The notes beneath the pieces were generated by a model. The model did not search any database and was not told the DNA's origin. It saw only the letters and a list, made by a program, of their open reading frames with translations. A program made the position numbers and the translations under genes. Positions 37,890 through 59,993 of a stretch of 64,000 nucleotides of DNA are shown piece by piece (position 1 is the first letter of the stretch; each line of letters opens with the position of its first letter). Source of the DNA: Exiguobacterium profundum (GTDB lineage: Bacteria; Bacillota; Bacilli; Exiguobacteriales; Exiguobacteriaceae). Where the stretch lies: NCBI RefSeq assembly GCF_001909285.1, contig NZ_MRSV01000001.1, positions 1,073,331 through 1,137,330 of the forward strand, in the 5' to 3' direction.

Positions 37890-38007
37890 TGATGGTTCCT
37901 CCTTCCGTGGACTCAAATCTGAACCGACAAAAAAAAAAAAATGCTCCTACAATCATACTATCGGATTGTTTTTCGGATTTTTTTACGTGATTTTGAAAAA
38001 TTTTAAA

Positions 38008-42911: not shown

Positions 42912-42952
42912 AAATGGGTAAACTAGGATAAAAAAAAAAAAAAATGGGTAAA
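42912..42952 (+). repeat. 11-bp direct repeat flanking an A15 tract
   Basis: AAATGGGTAAA occurs at 42912-42922 and 42942-42952 with A15 (42930-42944) between, 60 bp before the GAF/HD-GYP gene. The tract could lie in a promoter spacer (TAGGAT - 19 - TAAAAT) and change its length by slippage. Confidence 0.5.
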
Positions 42953-54233: not shown

Positions 54234-55232
54234 ATGCAACGGAAACGTGCGCGGGTCATTTATAACCCGACATCTGGTAAAGAAGTGATCAAACGGGAAC
54301 TCCCGTACATTTTGAACCGCCTCGAGGATGCGGGTTATGAGACGTCGACGTATGCGACGAAAGCGATTGGTGATGCCACGCTCGAAGCAAAACGGGCCTC
54401 AGCGGCCGAGTTCGACCTCATCATCGCCGCAGGCGGAGACGGGACATTGAACGAAGTCATCTCAGGGCTCGCCCCGCTAGAGAATCGTCCGACGATCGGA
54501 CTCATTCCGGTCGGGACGACGAACGACTTTGCCCGGGCGATGCGGATCCCACTAAGTGTGGTCGGTGCACTCGACGTCATCTGTGACGGATTCGAGATGC
54601 CGGTCGACCTTGGGGAAATCGAAGGCGAGAAAGGTGACATTCACTATTTCATCAATATCGCCGGTGGCGGCATCATGACCGAGCTCTCGTATGAGGTGCC
54701 ATCGAAGTTGAAGACAGCACTCGGGCAGCTCGCGTATTACGTGAAAGGGATGGAGAAACTGCCTCTCATCAAACCGACGTATATCGAGCTCGAACACGAT
54801 GAAGGAACGTTCCAAGGCGAGGTCATGGTCTTCCTCACATCGAACTCGAACTCGGTCGGTGGATATGAAAAAATCTCACCACACGCGTCGTTGAATGACG
54901 GGTTGTTCGATCTGTTCATTTTACGGAAATGTAACTTGTTCGAATTCATCCACGTCGTCCGTTTACTCCTTCGGGGTGAGCACTTATCAAGCTCACTCGT
55001 CGAGCATGTGAAGACGAGCCGCGTCCGGATGAAGACGACCGAGCCGATGAGTCTCAACATCGACGGTGAGTACGGCGGGGAATGCACAGGTGAAATGCGG
55101 AACTTATTCCGTCACTTGACGGTGCTCGCGCCGAACGCCCGAATTCGCGAGATGGAAGATTTGAATGCACAATATGAACGCGAACAGATGATCAAGCAAT
55201 TGTTCAATGTTTCGCTCGATAAAGCAGAGTGA
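54234..55232 (+). CDS. dgkB: Diacylglycerol kinase DgkB
   Basis: 332 residues from the ATG with GGGGAGAG upstream. RVIYNPTSGKE, IIAAGGDGTLNEVISGL, IPVGTTNDFARAM and the C-terminal SLNIDGEYGGE match the soluble DgkB/YerQ group. It phosphorylates diacylglycerol from lipoteichoic-acid synthesis. The order gatCAB-dgkB-rlmCD matches Bacillus. Confidence 0.95.
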   Translation: MQRKRARVIYNPTSGKEVIKRELPYILNRLEDAGYETSTYATKAIGDATLEAKRASAAEFDLIIAAGGDGTLNEVISGLAPLENRPTIGLIPVGTTNDFARAMRIPLSVVGALDVICDGFEMPVDLGEIEGEKGDIHYFINIAGGGIMTELSYEVPSKLKTALGQLAYYVKGMEKLPLIKPTYIELEHDEGTFQGEVMVFLTSNSNSVGGYEKISPHASLNDGLFDLFILRKCNLFEFIHVVRLLLRGEHLSSSLVEHVKTSRVRMKTTEPMSLNIDGEYGGECTGEMRNLFRHLTVLAPNARIREMEDLNAQYEREQMIKQLFNVSLDKAE

Positions 55233-55233
55233 A

Positions 55234-55268
55234 AAGATAGGAATGACGACATCTGTCATTCCTATTTG
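55234..55268 (+). terminator. Hairpin between dgkB and rRNA methyltransferase gene
   Basis: ATAGGAATGAC / GTCATTCCTAT, a perfect 11-bp stem, followed by TTTGC. The T run is short, so it may be a weak terminator. Confidence 0.65.
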
Positions 55269-55287
55269 CAATGGAAGGAGCATTCGT

Positions 55288-56649
55288 ATGCTACCAGTGA
55301 AAAAGAATGATCGTCTCGATGTCCACGTCCACGACTTGACCCATGAAGGGGCGGGTGTGGCACGTGTCGACGGCTATACGTTGTTCGTCCCGAACGCGTT
55401 ACCGGGTGAGACGGTCGAAATCGTCGTGACGAAGACGAACAAGCAGTACGGGTTCGCCCGATTGTTGAACGTGAAAGAAGCGAGCGCTGACCGCGTCGAG
55501 CCACCGTGCCCGATTTTTTATCAGTTTTTCGGCTGTCAGCTGCAACACTTCAGTTATGAAGGACAACTTCGCCAGAAACGAGAACGTGTCGTCGATGCGC
55601 TCAAGCGTCTTGGTCAGTTCGACGTGCCGGTCCATGACACGATCGGGATGCCAGAACCTTGGCGCTACCGCAACAAGGCGCAAGTCCCGTTCAAACAAGA
55701 AGGAGACCGTCTCGTTTCAGGCTTCTATCGTCCTCGTTCCCATGATATCGTCGAGATGAGCGAATGTTTGATTCAAGATGAGCGCAATGATCAGGCGATC
55801 CAAGTCGTCCGTGATGTGTTGGATGCTCGCGGTGTGCCGGCGTATGACGAGAAGACAGGACGTGGGGTCATCCGTCACGTGATGGCCCGTTACGGGTACC
55901 ATTCGGGTGAACTGATGATCGTCCTCATCACGAAGACGACGAAGCTAAAAGGTGTGAATGAGATCGTCGCCGATATCGTCGAGCGTCTTCCAGACGTGAC
56001 GTCGATCATGCAAAACGTCAACCCGGACAAGACGAACGTCATCCTCGGGGCGACGAACAAGTTGCTCTACGGCCACGAGACGATTGAGGATAAAATCGCA
56101 GGACTCACGTTCACGATCTCTCCGCACTCGTTCTTCCAAGTCAATCCGGTTCAAACGGAGAAGTTGTACGGGATAGCGCTGGAGTACGCACAACTGTCAG
56201 GTACGGAACAAGTCGTCGATGCGTATTGCGGCATCGGGACGATCAGTCTGTTCCTCGCCCGGAAAGCGGCGCACGTGTATGGTGTTGAAGTCGTTCCAGA
56301 AGCGATCGAGGATGCGAAACAGAATGCGCTCGTCAATGAGATCGATAACGTGACGTACGCATGTGGCGCGGCGGAAGACGTGCTTCCAGAGTGGAAGAAA
56401 GACGGTGTGAACCCGGACGTCATCGTCGTCGACCCACCACGTAAAGGCTGTGCCGAATCGTTCCTTGAGACGATGGTCGAGATGGGACCGAAACGGATTG
56501 TATACGTTTCTTGTAACGTCGCGACGCAGGCTCGTGATATGCGTTACCTCGCCGACCGTGGCTATCGCTTGATGGAAGTGACACCGGTCGACATGTTCCC
56601 GCATACGGCTCATGTGGAGACAGTGGCGTGGATGGAGAAAGTAGAATAA
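55288..56649 (+). CDS. rlmCD: 23S rRNA (uracil-C5)-methyltransferase, RlmCD/RumA type
   Basis: 453 residues from the ATG with GGAAGGAG upstream. TRAM domain (1-65, DVHVHDLTHEGAGVARVDGY), iron-sulfur Cys pattern PPCPIFYQFFGCQLQHF, SAM site VVDAYCGIGTISLFLA, catalytic loop VSCNVATQARDM and VDPPRKGC. It methylates uridines 747 and 1939-type positions of 23S rRNA. The AT-rich restriction island begins directly after its terminator. Confidence 0.93.
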   Translation: MLPVKKNDRLDVHVHDLTHEGAGVARVDGYTLFVPNALPGETVEIVVTKTNKQYGFARLLNVKEASADRVEPPCPIFYQFFGCQLQHFSYEGQLRQKRERVVDALKRLGQFDVPVHDTIGMPEPWRYRNKAQVPFKQEGDRLVSGFYRPRSHDIVEMSECLIQDERNDQAIQVVRDVLDARGVPAYDEKTGRGVIRHVMARYGYHSGELMIVLITKTTKLKGVNEIVADIVERLPDVTSIMQNVNPDKTNVILGATNKLLYGHETIEDKIAGLTFTISPHSFFQVNPVQTEKLYGIALEYAQLSGTEQVVDAYCGIGTISLFLARKAAHVYGVEVVPEAIEDAKQNALVNEIDNVTYACGAAEDVLPEWKKDGVNPDVIVVDPPRKGCAESFLETMVEMGPKRIVYVSCNVATQARDMRYLADRGYRLMEVTPVDMFPHTAHVETVAWMEKVE

Positions 56650-56658
56650 GATGAATGT

Positions 56659-56696
56659 AACATGCCTTCGATTGATTCAATCAAGGGCATGTTTTA
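56659..56696 (+). terminator. Terminator of rlmCD
   Basis: ACATGCC / GGGCATGT with inner TTGATTG/CAATCAA, followed by TTTTATT. Confidence 0.82.
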
Positions 56697-56898
56697 TTAT
56701 TTACAACCTATTTTTATGATTATAGAGCATAAATTATTAAGTGCACTACGTATGGGTTTATACGTATATATTTCTCTAGTTATGTAATATGTTAAAAAAG
56801 AAGTTATAAATATTTATGAAATACGAATAGGATGAAAATAATTAAATATTAGTTTTATTCCGAAAAGATATGGTGTATCTTTTTAGAATTTAAAAATG

Positions 56899-56986
56899 TT
56901 ACTTTCACGAACTCGGATAATGACTATATTATTATGATTTAAGTTAACTTTGTTAGTTTGTTAGTCGAAGTACATAGTGAAAGTAA
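56899..56986. promoter_or_regulatory. Inverted repeats flanking the nuclease promoter region
   Basis: TTACTTTCAC (56899-56908) and its exact complement GTGAAAGTAA (56977-56986) flank a 68-bp AT-rich stretch that also holds two adjacent copies of TTTGTTAG (56949-56964). Placement suggests control of the downstream endonuclease; no C-protein gene is present. Confidence 0.45.
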
Positions 56987-57024
56987 TTGAAAATGTAAAA
57001 TTTTTTATTTAAAGGAGGCTTATT

Positions 57025-58644
57025 ATGAACAAAGAATACAAGTCGGTTCGAGAGATAAAAGAACATGGTGAAGCTGCTATAGGAAAGAGGATTCGAGAAC
57101 TTGTTTCAAAAGAGAGCGTTAATAGTTGGTATGTAAACCCCAAAAATAAAGGGTGGATTGGTAATTCTATCGAAAAAGATTGGTTTGGATTAGAAAATAA
57201 TAGTAGGCCAGAAGCTGACTTCGACACATTAGGTGTAGAGCTTAAGTGTGCAGGACTTAAATTTTTTAAAAGAGATGGTTTTTGGGCTGCGAATGAAAGG
57301 TTAGTACTTAATATCTTTGATTACGATGAGAAAAACAAAAAAGATTTTCAAACTTCTTCTTTTTTAAAAAAATCTAACTTAATAAAACTGGTGTTATATA
57401 AATATGACCCGATTGAATATTATAGTTTTGAAGGAAAAGAATATCCAATCTATCCTGATTTTATTGTGTCTGACTCCATTCTTTTTAATTTATACGACTT
57501 AATGGAAGAAGATTTAGATATAATTAGAAATGACTGGGAATTAATAATGAATATGATTAGGGAAGGACGTGCTGATGAAATTTCTGAAGGTATGACACAA
57601 TATCTTGGTGCTGTTACTAAGGGAGGAAAAAAAAAAAAAAACCTTACATCACAACCTTTCAGTGACAAAAGGGCACATAGACGAGCTTTTTCGCTGAAAC
57701 CGTCGTATATGAAAGAAATCACGAGACGTATCGTCAATAGACAGTTAACAAGTTCGACAACGTATGATTCATATGTCATTGACTATCCAGAGCTACATGA
57801 ACAATCATTTGACACGCAGTATGACACTAGAGAACATATAATAACTAACCCATCTGAATTACACACAAAAACGTTTGAAGAAATCATTCTAAATCGACTA
57901 AAACCATATCATGGAATGAACAAAAAGATATTAGGGGAAGAATTTGGAGTAAACATACCAGCTAAGAATGATAAAGCTAGTTCTCGATTGATAACACAAA
58001 AAATGTTTAATTTACAAAATGATTTAGAAGAAACTGACGAGTTTAAAAAAGCTGGGATTGTTTTGAAAATTATTACCGTGAAGTCAAATAAGAGGAAAAA
58101 GGAATCTAAAAAAAGATTAACAACTGAAGGGTTTAAACTTGAGTCGGATATTAGCTTTATTAAAGATATTTGTGATTTAGAATGGGAAGACACGCGAGTA
58201 TATGATTATCTTTCAACAACAAAATTTTTATTATTCATTTATGAGGAAACTTCTAAAGGAGAGATATTCAAAGGGGCAAAGTTCTGGTATATGCCTGAAG
58301 AAGATCTTGTGAAGAGGGTTAGTGAAACGTGGAGAAAAAAAAAAAAAATTCTTATCGAAGGTGTTGAATTAACATATAAACCTGTAAATAACAAAAAAGG
58401 ATTTGTAGTAATAAATAATCTACCTAGTAATTCAAATAACACTGGAGTTCTTCATATAAGACCATCGGCAGAAAAATCAGAATATTTTGAAGGGAAAAAT
58501 TCTAGTCGCCTTCCTACGCCTGCTCGTTGGAAAAATAGACCGGAAAATATGGAGAACGTTTTGACGAATGATTATATGGTTAAACAAGCATTTTGGCTAA
58601 ATAAGAACTATATGTATCAACAGGTAAAAGAATATTTTGAGTGA
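57025..58644 (+). CDS. Sau3AI/MutH-like type II restriction endonuclease
   Basis: 539 residues; Sau3AI is about 490. Strong resemblance by memory to Sau3AI: ERLVLNIFDYDEK, FQTSSFLKKSN, ADEISEGMTQYLGAVTKG, AHRRAFSLKPSYM and the C-terminal KQAFWLNKNYMYQQVKEY. The MutH-type active site is Asp...Glu-x-Lys in RPEADFDTLGVELKCAG (about residue 71-84). Two MutH-like halves are expected: the N-terminal catalytic, the C-terminal DNA-binding. The likely target is GATC. AAAGGAGG precedes the ATG. A15 and A14 tracts lie in the gene (codons for KKKK). Codon use is far more AT-rich than neighbours. No methyltransferase is seen. Confidence 0.88.
   Translation: MNKEYKSVREIKEHGEAAIGKRIRELVSKESVNSWYVNPKNKGWIGNSIEKDWFGLENNSRPEADFDTLGVELKCAGLKFFKRDGFWAANERLVLNIFDYDEKNKKDFQTSSFLKKSNLIKLVLYKYDPIEYYSFEGKEYPIYPDFIVSDSILFNLYDLMEEDLDIIRNDWELIMNMIREGRADEISEGMTQYLGAVTKGGKKKKNLTSQPFSDKRAHRRAFSLKPSYMKEITRRIVNRQLTSSTTYDSYVIDYPELHEQSFDTQYDTREHIITNPSELHTKTFEEIILNRLKPYHGMNKKILGEEFGVNIPAKNDKASSRLITQKMFNLQNDLEETDEFKKAGIVLKIITVKSNKRKKESKKRLTTEGFKLESDISFIKDICDLEWEDTRVYDYLSTTKFLLFIYEETSKGEIFKGAKFWYMPEEDLVKRVSETWRKKKKILIEGVELTYKPVNNKKGFVVINNLPSNSNNTGVLHIRPSAEKSEYFEGKNSSRLPTPARWKNRPENMENVLTNDYMVKQAFWLNKNYMYQQVKEYFE
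57627..57641 (+). repeat. A15 tract within endonuclease gene
   Basis: Fifteen A starting in the last base of a GGA codon and encoding KKKK; slippage by one would shift the frame. Located where Sau3AI has a variable short loop. Confidence 0.9.
58335..58348 (+). repeat. A14 tract within endonuclease gene
   Basis: Fourteen A encoding part of RKKKKI in the C-terminal half; a second site for slippage. Confidence 0.9.
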
Positions 58645-58675
58645 TTTGGATTTTTCAGAAGTCGAATATAATATT

Positions 58676-58705
58676 AAGGGTGATTTCTATATAGATATCA
58701 CCCTT
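58676..58705 (+). terminator. Terminator of the endonuclease gene
   Basis: AAGGGTGAT / ATCACCCTT with an inner TCTATATAGA dyad, followed by ATATTATT; weak U tract. Confidence 0.65.
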
Positions 58706-58869
58706 ATATTATTATAAAAAATTTCAATTAAATATTTAGTGACTGCTTTTTTAAAGGGTTCTTTCTAGTGAACGGACTAAGCACCTATTCTTATTTTCAT
58801 GGTCGAATAAAGAAGAGATTTTTAATTGCTCTCTACTATATTTATTGATAACTGAAAGGAGAGTCGGAG

Positions 58870-59463
58870 ATGAGGAAAATCATTGTTCTGGAACACCTGT
58901 CGTTAGACGGTGTGATTCAAGCACCAGGTGGGAGAGAAGAAGATTTAAGTGGGGATTTCATGCATGGGGGATGGACGGAACCTTTTTCGAGCCAAGATCT
59001 CGGAATTTGGATTCGGACGCAAATGCATAGTGAGTTTGATTTGTTGCTCGGTCGAAAGACATATGACCAATGGGCGAGTTACTGGCCGAACCACGATGAC
59101 GTCTGGCCGGAAGCCAACCGGGCGATGAAGTATGTGGTAACACGGCAATCACAGGATTCACGATGGGAGTCAACGATGCTTCTGACAGAACCAGTCGAAG
59201 CGTTGAAACGACTCAAACAAGAAGAGGGACCCGATTTACACGTCTGGGGAAGCAGCGAACTTGTGCATACGCTACTCGCGAACGACCTCATCGATGAAGT
59301 TCGACTGATTGTATATCCCATCATCATCGGTTCAGGCAAACGACTTTTCCCAGACGGCAACATCTTGCCACTACACCTCGACGTGATCGAGCAACAGCTG
59401 ATGCCGAACGGGGTCCATGTTGTTCGGTATGGGCGCCTTCAATCGGTAGGGGGGAAGATATGA
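58870..59463 (+). CDS. Dihydrofolate-reductase-like protein (RibD C-terminal type)
   Basis: 197 residues. MRKIIVLEHLSLDGVIQAPGG, LLLGRKTYDQW, WGSSELVHTLLANDLIDEV and YPIIIGSGKRLF are the YyaP/RibD-C patterns. Probably an NADPH-dependent reductase; substrate unknown. AAAGGAGAG precedes the ATG. Its stop overlaps the next gene (ATGA), so the two are coupled. Codon use returns to the chromosomal norm here. Confidence 0.9.
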   Translation: MRKIIVLEHLSLDGVIQAPGGREEDLSGDFMHGGWTEPFSSQDLGIWIRTQMHSEFDLLLGRKTYDQWASYWPNHDDVWPEANRAMKYVVTRQSQDSRWESTMLLTEPVEALKRLKQEEGPDLHVWGSSELVHTLLANDLIDEVRLIVYPIIIGSGKRLFPDGNILPLHLDVIEQQLMPNGVHVVRYGRLQSVGGKI

Positions 59464-59993
59464 GAATCGAGCAACACCTCGAAATGACCGTATCAGAATC
59501 GATGGATAAGGAGCTAACTGAGCTATTACAACATGCGTTTCCCTCAATTTATCCGAATCGCCGCTACTTCAAGCAATTACCCCATTTCCGACTCATCGCG
59601 TATGAAGACGAACGGATCATTGGACAAGTCGGGTTAGACTTTCGTGTGATGAATATGAACGGGGAATCGATTCACGTGCTCGGCATCATCGATCTGTGTG
59701 TCCGGGAAGAAGTTCGGGGACGTGGGGTCGGACGGGCACTGATGAAAAAAGTCATTGCTCTTGGGGAAACGTACCCCATCGATTTTCTTCTGTTATTCGC
59801 AGACCGACCAGACCTCTACGAACGCATTGGGTTTCACACGGTATCTAACACATGCACGTGGCTTCAAATCAATGACGAGAATCAGACGACACGCGGAATC
59901 GGTGAGGCATCGTTTGAAGAATTGATGATTCGTCAGGTGGGAGACAAACGATGGAGCGACGGAACACTCGATTTGCTTGGATATTTATACTAG
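59460..59993 (+). CDS. GNAT family N-acetyltransferase
   Basis: 177 residues. The acetyl-CoA loop is CVREEVRGRGVGRALM near residue 80-95; RPDLYERIGFHTV follows, as in GNAT proteins of the general type. Acts on an unknown amine. It overlaps the preceding reductase gene by four bases and is followed 10 bp later by the frameshifted gene. Confidence 0.9.
   Translation: MRIEQHLEMTVSESMDKELTELLQHAFPSIYPNRRYFKQLPHFRLIAYEDERIIGQVGLDFRVMNMNGESIHVLGIIDLCVREEVRGRGVGRALMKKVIALGETYPIDFLLLFADRPDLYERIGFHTVSNTCTWLQINDENQTTRGIGEASFEELMIRQVGDKRWSDGTLDLLGYLY

Follow-up and report, generated by a model that had tools for sequence, protein, structure and literature searches.

We conclude that the gene at positions 57025-58644 of the window (the whole 64-kb stretch of DNA analysed here) encodes a solitary endonuclease of the Sau3AI family, R2, which is probably protected in trans by M1, a C5-methylase encoded elsewhere in the same genome. 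Judging from gene content and comparison with relatives, we think it likely that R2 is an active GATC endonuclease and that, with M1 protecting the host, a methylase of its own became dispensable.

The R2 gene and its AT-rich island

R2 scored 426.5 bits against the NCBIfam model of the Sau3AI family, NF040973 (curated cut-off 300), and also matched Pfam MutH in a profile search. Both of its halves matched the solved Sau3AI structure 4pxg (E 6e-66; residues 8-237 and 270-536). These matches bear out the earlier note, which had described a Sau3AI/MutH-like endonuclease. The features of the gene are as follows.

57011-57018, + strand: ribosome binding site AAAGGAGG, with the ATG 6 bases further on (direct sequence reading)
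57025-58644, + strand: R2, solitary Sau3AI-family type II endonuclease, 539 aa (NF040973, Pfam MutH, PDB 4pxg for both domains)
57040-57771, + strand: N-terminal (catalytic) MutH-like domain, approximately residues 6-249 (NF040973 6-249; 4pxg 8-237)
57217-57246, + strand: catalytic D65 ... E72-L-K74 (4pxg alignment; kept in 7 of 7 R2 copies)
57832-58641, + strand: C-terminal MutH-like domain, approximately residues 270-539 (4pxg 270-536, 7xm0 272-536, 2reu 281-536)
58675-58706, + strand: inverted repeat 3' of the R2 stop, a possible terminator (16-nt arms, 94% complementary; the terminator scan called none here)

The pattern D-x6-E-x-K, which we take to be the MutH/Sau3AI active site, was assigned to D65, E72 and K74; the 4pxg chain has Ala where R2 has E72. 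All seven R2 genes found (see below) are full length, have no internal stop and keep D/E/K in the alignment, so that low activity through loss of these residues is not borne out, low activity being one way out that the earlier note had left to the host. R2 is not a MutH repair enzyme, as its scores fall far under the equivalog cut-offs (56.4 bits for NF003458, cut-off 243; 48.6 bits for TIGR02248, cut-off 229.9). A prophage origin was also rejected, no relative being found in viral_contigs; three unannotated faecal phage records resemble R2 at 30–34%. An AlphaFold model built from four sequences had a mean pLDDT of 36.8 and was set aside.

R2 lies on an island bounded by two flanking genes.

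55207-56649, + strand: left flank gene, presumably rlmCD (a name taken from the earlier note), with a DNA match in each of the 19 genus genomes
56696-58853, no strand: AT-rich insertion of ~2.16 kb, from the rlmCD terminator to the leader of the next gene (blastn against G016, G002 and G001; GC content)
58870-59463, + strand: right flank gene, reductase-like (we assume dihydrofolate reductase-like), which directly follows the rlmCD terminator in G016, G002 and G001

GC content drops from ~0.50–0.55 in the flanks to 0.29–0.35 across ~56500-59000. We compared window positions 56000-59500 by blastn with the matching loci of the 18 other genus genomes. In G016, G002 and G001 the flanks are only 10, 10 and 23 bp apart, with matches ending at 56695, 56695 and 56682, respectively, and resuming from 58854, which indicates that the window genome gained the ~2.16 kb. 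The right-hand gene also lies within ~40 bp in G011, G017 and G008 (L040, L043 and L048; 68–69% identity). Both the AT-rich island and its position directly 3' of the rlmCD terminator, as the earlier note had them, thus hold, and the search for an empty site in relatives that it had called for found one in three congeners. R2 itself is present in 1 of the 19 genus genomes, that of the window. These observations support a recent gain of the AT-rich island with R2.

The other island ORFs of at least 60 aa run antisense to R2, except for one that starts at the right edge of the island. A small partner gene was rejected, the stretches 5' and 3' of R2 being short AT-rich open stretches, as was an RNA family, none of which reached threshold. 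The repeat scan found no repeats at the two ends of the island, and promoter-like sites around it were not in excess of shuffles. Nor did a C-protein or Vsr gene appear nearby in the ORF list, in line with the earlier note; tblastn with two queries, an HTH protein and the methylase M2 (see below), covered 56601-57100 and 58601-59000, at the two ends of R2. In several genus genomes a different gene follows rlmCD (judged by ORF starts), so that the spot tolerates insertions. Across L032-L049 (from ~2950 onward, in rlmCD orientation) genes at this spot differ by species, as in a small variable slot; by eye, they include MarR-like, Fic-like and nucleotidyltransferase-like genes.

C5-methylases in genomes with R2

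Solitary type II endonucleases have long been puzzling, as a host without protection ought to be killed by an active one. GATC sites do occur throughout the window, as the earlier note had pointed out, with 232 occurrences against 423 expected from a Markov estimate. Across the genus, among the 16 palindromic tetramers, GATC ranks lowest or second lowest in abundance in all but one of the 18 genomes sampled (L181-L198; mean O/E 0.62), the exception being G006 with an O/E of 0.92. This depletion is independent of M1-R1, the system described next: O/E was 0.62 in nine genomes with R1 and 0.63 in nine without (p 0.93), the groups being set by the R1 search alone and including nine of the ten genomes without R1 (G004, with 8% contamination, was omitted).

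The window genome (G000; 2.92 Mb in 21 contigs) holds a complete Sau3AI-like system. M1, the only PF00145 C5-methylase found in it, lies at C1:357658-358899, ~771 kb from R2, and adjoins both R1, a second Sau3AI-family endonuclease, and a Vsr gene. R1 is intact, with 476 aa and a score of 515.5 bits against NF040973; R2 is 63 aa longer and is 40% identical to it in the N-domain and 33% overall. The genome therefore contains a single C5-methylase and two intact endonucleases of the Sau3AI type. Among adenine-methylase families the search covered MethyltransfD12 (PF02086), which had no match in G000, and protection by an enzyme of this Dam type was rejected.

These results settle the note's main claim in part. 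R2 has no methylase beside it, as claimed, the sole PF00145 gene found in the genome being M1, and in this respect the arrangement is that of a separated R-M system (a full-length endonuclease with no methylase within 4 kb) and not that of a linked type II system, in which the methylase stands beside the endonuclease. An orphan without protection finds no support, given M1-R1-Vsr. The genome search for a Dam/M.Sau3AI-type methylase that the note had suggested thus returned M1, and protection from elsewhere, one of its options, is the best supported. What the note had said would overturn its reading, a cognate GATC methylase beside a second endonuclease copy, is largely what M1-R1 is, at a distance.

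Seven R2 copies were found, at least 67% identical over their full length: those of Peribacillus deserti, Aquibacillus rhizosphaerae (G020), Rossellomorea aquimaris (G021), a Niallia plasmid, G113, G199 and the window (539 aa in the window, 539–543 aa in the relatives). The copies of Peribacillus, Aquibacillus and Rossellomorea came from a pattern scan that retrieves close relatives only, so seven may be an undercount. In three of the seven (Niallia plasmid, Peribacillus and G199) R2 is accompanied by a small gene for an HTH protein and by a divergent methylase, called M2 here, whereas the other four (window, Aquibacillus, Rossellomorea and G113) are solitary. All four genomes with a solitary R2 carry an M1-class methylase. 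An M1-R1 pair lies 8–10 kb from R2 in Aquibacillus and on another contig in G113; in Rossellomorea, M1 lies ~16 kb from R2.

Remnants of the cassette persist beside two of the solitary genes, as decayed HTH and M2 N-terminal pieces in G113 and as the last 28 codons of M2 in Rossellomorea. The latter genome also has, just upstream of R2 (L146 3540-3731), a 66-aa stretch that is 36% like the R1 C-domain and is a putative remnant of another Sau3AI-type endonuclease. As this is the only trace of R1 found there, R2, the only intact Sau3AI-type endonuclease seen in Rossellomorea, may have replaced a lost R1. The six Bacillus-type copies resemble one another in the 57–81 bp 5' of R2, even where, as in Aquibacillus and Rossellomorea, the sequence further upstream differs. 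The three Bacillus-type solitary copies have in common a 4-aa insertion absent from the other R2 copies; their independence may therefore be incomplete, even if they differ in what remains of M2. The window has no M2 or HTH remnant in the 375 bp upstream of R2, and so no trace there of the route of gain. M2 is lost from beside R2 in relatives that hold M1, and the two whole genomes with the M2-R2 cassette (G019 and G199) showed no second PF00145 methylase. This loss is not universal, since G419 keeps an M2-like methylase with a 48% R2-like gene alongside M1.

In a methylase tree of 38 rows (37 different), the M1s of G000, G020, G021 and G113 and the M2s fall in one clade of 28 (support 100/99), with the other C5-methylases of the same genomes outside it; the tool attached a long-branch warning to this tree. 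The M1 of the window genome is 44–45% identical to the three R2-linked M2s. The target recognition region of C5-methylases usually lies between motifs VIII and IX, and there M1s and M2s have a block in common, GPKKIER..GH..SEGGM..RTMLTSEG..NRS.H. The single clade and the common block support, but do not prove, GATC as the common site of M1 and M2. As GATC has one cytosine per strand, C5-methylases of this specificity would leave an identical mark, and M1 could replace M2.

To place the co-occurrence of solitary R2 and M1 against a background, we used 397 sampled genomes from the order of Aquibacillus (a sample from the order of G019 is the same except for its centre and is not independent). 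A clade methylase was found in 42 at E 1e-40 or better, and an M1-type match of at least 370 bits in 40, these being the 42 minus G199 (M2 only) and G424 (a fragment with a stop). Without the solitary-R2 genomes G020 and G113, both in the sample, the count is 38 of 395. If solitary R2 copies fell at random, all four would lie in M1 genomes with a chance of 0.1 x 0.1 x 0.1 x 0.44, or ~4e-4, a rough figure in which the copies are not independent, the 10% is applied to Rossellomorea from outside the sample, and the window genome is represented by 8 of 18 other genus genomes. The 40 sampled genomes with a Sau3AI-type match (C-domain-only proteins included) all lie within the 42, G199 by way of M2.

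Solitude seems rarer outside R2, since at 35 of the 40 other Sau3AI-type places a clade methylase lies no more than 4 kb away. At the five exceptions, the gene is fused to another C5-methylase (G063:C11), lies near a C5-methylase fragment (G241:C9), lies 2 kb from a contig end (G227:C5), or simply has no clade methylase within that distance (G349 and G128). The genomes of the last four nevertheless have one.

Constraint, mechanism and competing explanations

Pairwise dN/dS among the six Bacillus-type R2 copies ranged from 0.14 to 0.30, with 0.19–0.24 for solitary pairs against 0.14–0.18 for M2-linked pairs. For pairs that include the window R2, dS is saturated; three of the six gave no estimate and three gave 0.04–0.06 at dS >3. 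These low values speak for R2 as a maintained protein, and the slightly higher values of solitary pairs could reflect mild relaxation.

The window gene carries two long A tracts.

57627-57641, + strand: A15 homopolymer in the R2 coding sequence (in the six relatives, A runs reach 7–8 at most)
58335-58348, + strand: A14 homopolymer in the R2 coding sequence (absent from the six relatives)

Only five A runs of at least 9 occur on the + strand of the 64-kb window, and no T runs of that length. Elsewhere in it lie an A13 at 37929-37941 and an A15 at 42930-42944, the latter apparently 3' of a terminator-like hairpin.

The following course of events would account for these findings. R2 would descend from an M2-HTH-R2 cassette and would have arrived as a lone gene or been reduced to one. 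It would be expressed and cut incoming unmodified GATC, while M1, part of a different complete Sau3AI-like system, would keep the chromosome marked in trans. In cells with M1 the cassette's own M2 would be dispensable, and it would decay or be left behind in transfer. Against this account stand the small number of copies (four solitary, three paired) and their relatedness, the M2-like methylase kept beside M1 in G419, the GATC depletion that does not follow M1-R1, the slightly higher dN/dS of solitary pairs, and the lack of excess in promoter-like sites.

Four other explanations have to be weighed against it. R2 might be a silent or inactive relic, unexpressed or non-cutting, with M1 present incidentally. 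In the survey of PMC3488263, 99 of 272 solitary endonucleases are given as likely fragments and others are discussed, within the text available, as unexpressed or inactive. The promoter-like sites of the island, no more frequent than in shuffles, and the presence of R2 in just one of 19 genus genomes would fit such a gene. A relic would not be expected to combine full length, an intact active site and a strong ribosome binding site with low dN/dS across copies, and incidental presence of M1 sits poorly with four of four solitary-R2 genomes against 40 of 397 sampled; we judge this explanation unlikely. Another idea is that slippage of polymerase or replication at A15 and A14 puts most R2 copies or transcripts out of frame, as a throttle or phase switch. 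Two such in-frame tracts in one gene, in a window with so few long A runs, contrast with the 7–8 of the relatives, and codon-order shuffles gave two runs of at least 14 in 0 of 5000 cases and one run in 68. Given the R2 protein, however, 482 of 5000 synonymous shuffles yield two runs and 2454 yield one, so that the tracts are largely due to lysine (KKKK) residues. At the tracts the R2 copies align without any difference in length, and long runs also occur outside R2. Slippage could lower full-length R2 output, and a length switch is compatible with, not exclusive of, protection in trans, but we give it a rather small chance.

R2 might also have changed its target, to modified GATC (type IIM/IV-like) or to another sequence, which would make a GATC methylase unneeded. 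Its low identity to R1 (33%) and its 63 additional residues leave room for this, and contig C11 of the window genome has a Sau3AI-like C-domain protein near AAA (McrB-like) and McrC genes. Yet the M2-linked copies, which share 87–92% identity with the three solitary copies of Bacillus type, adjoin an ordinary C5-methylase from the clade found with Sau3AI-type endonucleases, so that methyl-dependent cutting, another option of the earlier note, gains no positive support. A GATm5C cutter would also kill M1 cells, in which all four solitary copies reside. Among the matches listed, no model of a methyl-dependent (type IIM/IV) endonuclease was found for R2. We regard a changed target as very improbable. 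It is also conceivable, at low probability, that R2 is a free-riding selfish gene that works by addiction, making M1 hard to lose without adding to defence. If nothing but M1 protected the host, a solitary R2 would indeed make M1 essential, and a selfish view of R-M systems is given in the text seen of PMC3488263. The gene anatomy expected is identical to that of the defence reading, and the two are not separable on it. Protection in trans of an active R2 by M1 remains the explanation that we favour.

Wider modules and known systems

The R2 subfamily lines up paired, decaying and solitary states. For each of the four solitary copies, the genome encodes at another place a methylase of the same clade, which in three cases belongs to another complete system. 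This leads to a testable rule, namely that a genome with a resident isospecific methylase tolerates a solitary endonuclease. The pattern also suggests that a single mark on DNA might cover several unrelated effectors, in which case defence parts could spread without an antidote of their own.

Tentatively, from gene neighbourhoods, we extend this to the idea, doubtful as it stands, that the clade GATC C5-methylase is a shared hub of self-marking for several restriction effectors gained and lost separately. The hypothetical effectors of the hub would be R1, the solitary R2 and two modules, one that combines a Sau3AI C-domain protein with a PLD-helicase like PbeA and one with UvrD/NERD helicases; if this reading is true, the window R2 would be one plug-in effector. 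The C-domain module consists of a Sau3AI C-terminal-domain-only protein, a protein of ~403–439 aa and a PLD-SNF2 helicase, and occurs beside a clade C5-methylase in five genomes (G107, G171, G184, G218 and G232), at these loci.

L202, 6496-15001
L203, 6244-15001
L204, 2757-13309
L205, 4690-14064
L206, 7760-14584

A protein of ~800 aa accompanies it in three of the five cases (not seen in L204 and L206). The helicase of G107 matches PADLOC PbeA, and those of the other four are 62–70% identical to the G107 protein by blastp, those of G184 and G218 over partial stretches. A single clade methylase sits between R1 and this module in G107 and G171; in G184, G218 and G232 the search found no R1, and the module has clade methylases close by (G232 has two). 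The Sau3AI C-domain of the module may be a reader of unmethylated GATC. M1 of G021 occurs together with the helicase module, in a genome where the solitary R2 lies beside the R1-like fragment; the UvrD/NERD module adjoins a clade methylase in both G021 and G128. UvrD/NERD genes, a clade methylase and a lone Sau3AI-like gene possibly form one larger defence system.

Some further loci are worth recording. UvrD/NERD loci are L145 6693-19990, L146 27-5757, L201 467-9257 and L143 8892-17204. Their helicase genes lie beside the clade methylase and near a solitary R2 or another lone Sau3AI-like gene, and the L145/L146 set has PADLOC GajB and NERD+UvrD matches; in L143, genes weakly similar (24–29%) to the UvrD/NERD helicase set come after R2. 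L208 5853-8132 is a single ORF of 759 aa in which an N-terminal C5-methylase is fused to a Sau3AI-type endonuclease domain, adjoining helicase genes that resemble those near M1 in L145 and L201. Contig C11 of the window genome, a 76.5-kb plasmid-like contig with a gene that we assume to be ParA-like, carries a 507-aa protein with the Sau3AI C-terminal domain only (L007 10768-12291) and the AAA (McrB-like) and McrC genes (L007 1730-5466). Similar Sau3AI C-domain matches, plus M1, occur in G003 and G017.

Coupling of a defence system to a cytosine methylase has been described for CxC-ABC/DndE systems, called PbeABCD by others, in the portion of PMC10853773 consulted; MutH and Sau3AI go unmentioned in its main text. 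GATm5C blocks Sau3AI, according to the part of PMC5608340 consulted. Like the Sau3AI R-M system (NF040973; 4pxg, 2reu, 7xm0), R2 has two MutH-like domains with D-x6-E-x-K, and unlike it, R2 has no adjoining methylase. The same difference separates the window from the M2-HTH-R2 cassettes of the Niallia sp. Man26 plasmid (NZ_CP095745.1), Peribacillus deserti and G199, whose endonucleases are 68–69% identical over the full length; window R2 lacks the divergent C5-methylase and small HTH gene next door. In Listeria, a Sau3AI-like system of an endonuclease and a cytosine methylase acting at GATC occupies a variable chromosomal slot, as the accessible text of PMC10059834 has it. R2 resembles it in its location and differs in that the Listeria system is complete; the words orphan and solitary are absent from the main text of that paper. 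Among the matches listed in the open-licence literature, there was no description of a solitary Sau3AI-like endonuclease.

The closest parallel is the survey of Ershova 2012 (PMC3488263), in whose available text 272 solitary restriction endonucleases are reported, 57 with a predicted distant methylase, and a scenario is given in which an endonuclease gene enters a genome that holds a methylase with equal or broader specificity; Sau3AI is absent from the main text. R2, far from its presumed methylase, is like these separated R-M systems. According to the same text, every predicted distant methylase was itself solitary, whereas M1 is part of a complete second R-M system in the window genome, Aquibacillus and G113; Rossellomorea, with no intact R1 found, differs from these three. 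M1, 44–45% identical to the R2-linked M2s, also falls below the 50% ortholog threshold stated there. Separated R-M systems are thus known, and the new element proposed here is that the protecting methylase would be on loan from a second, complete system in the same cell.
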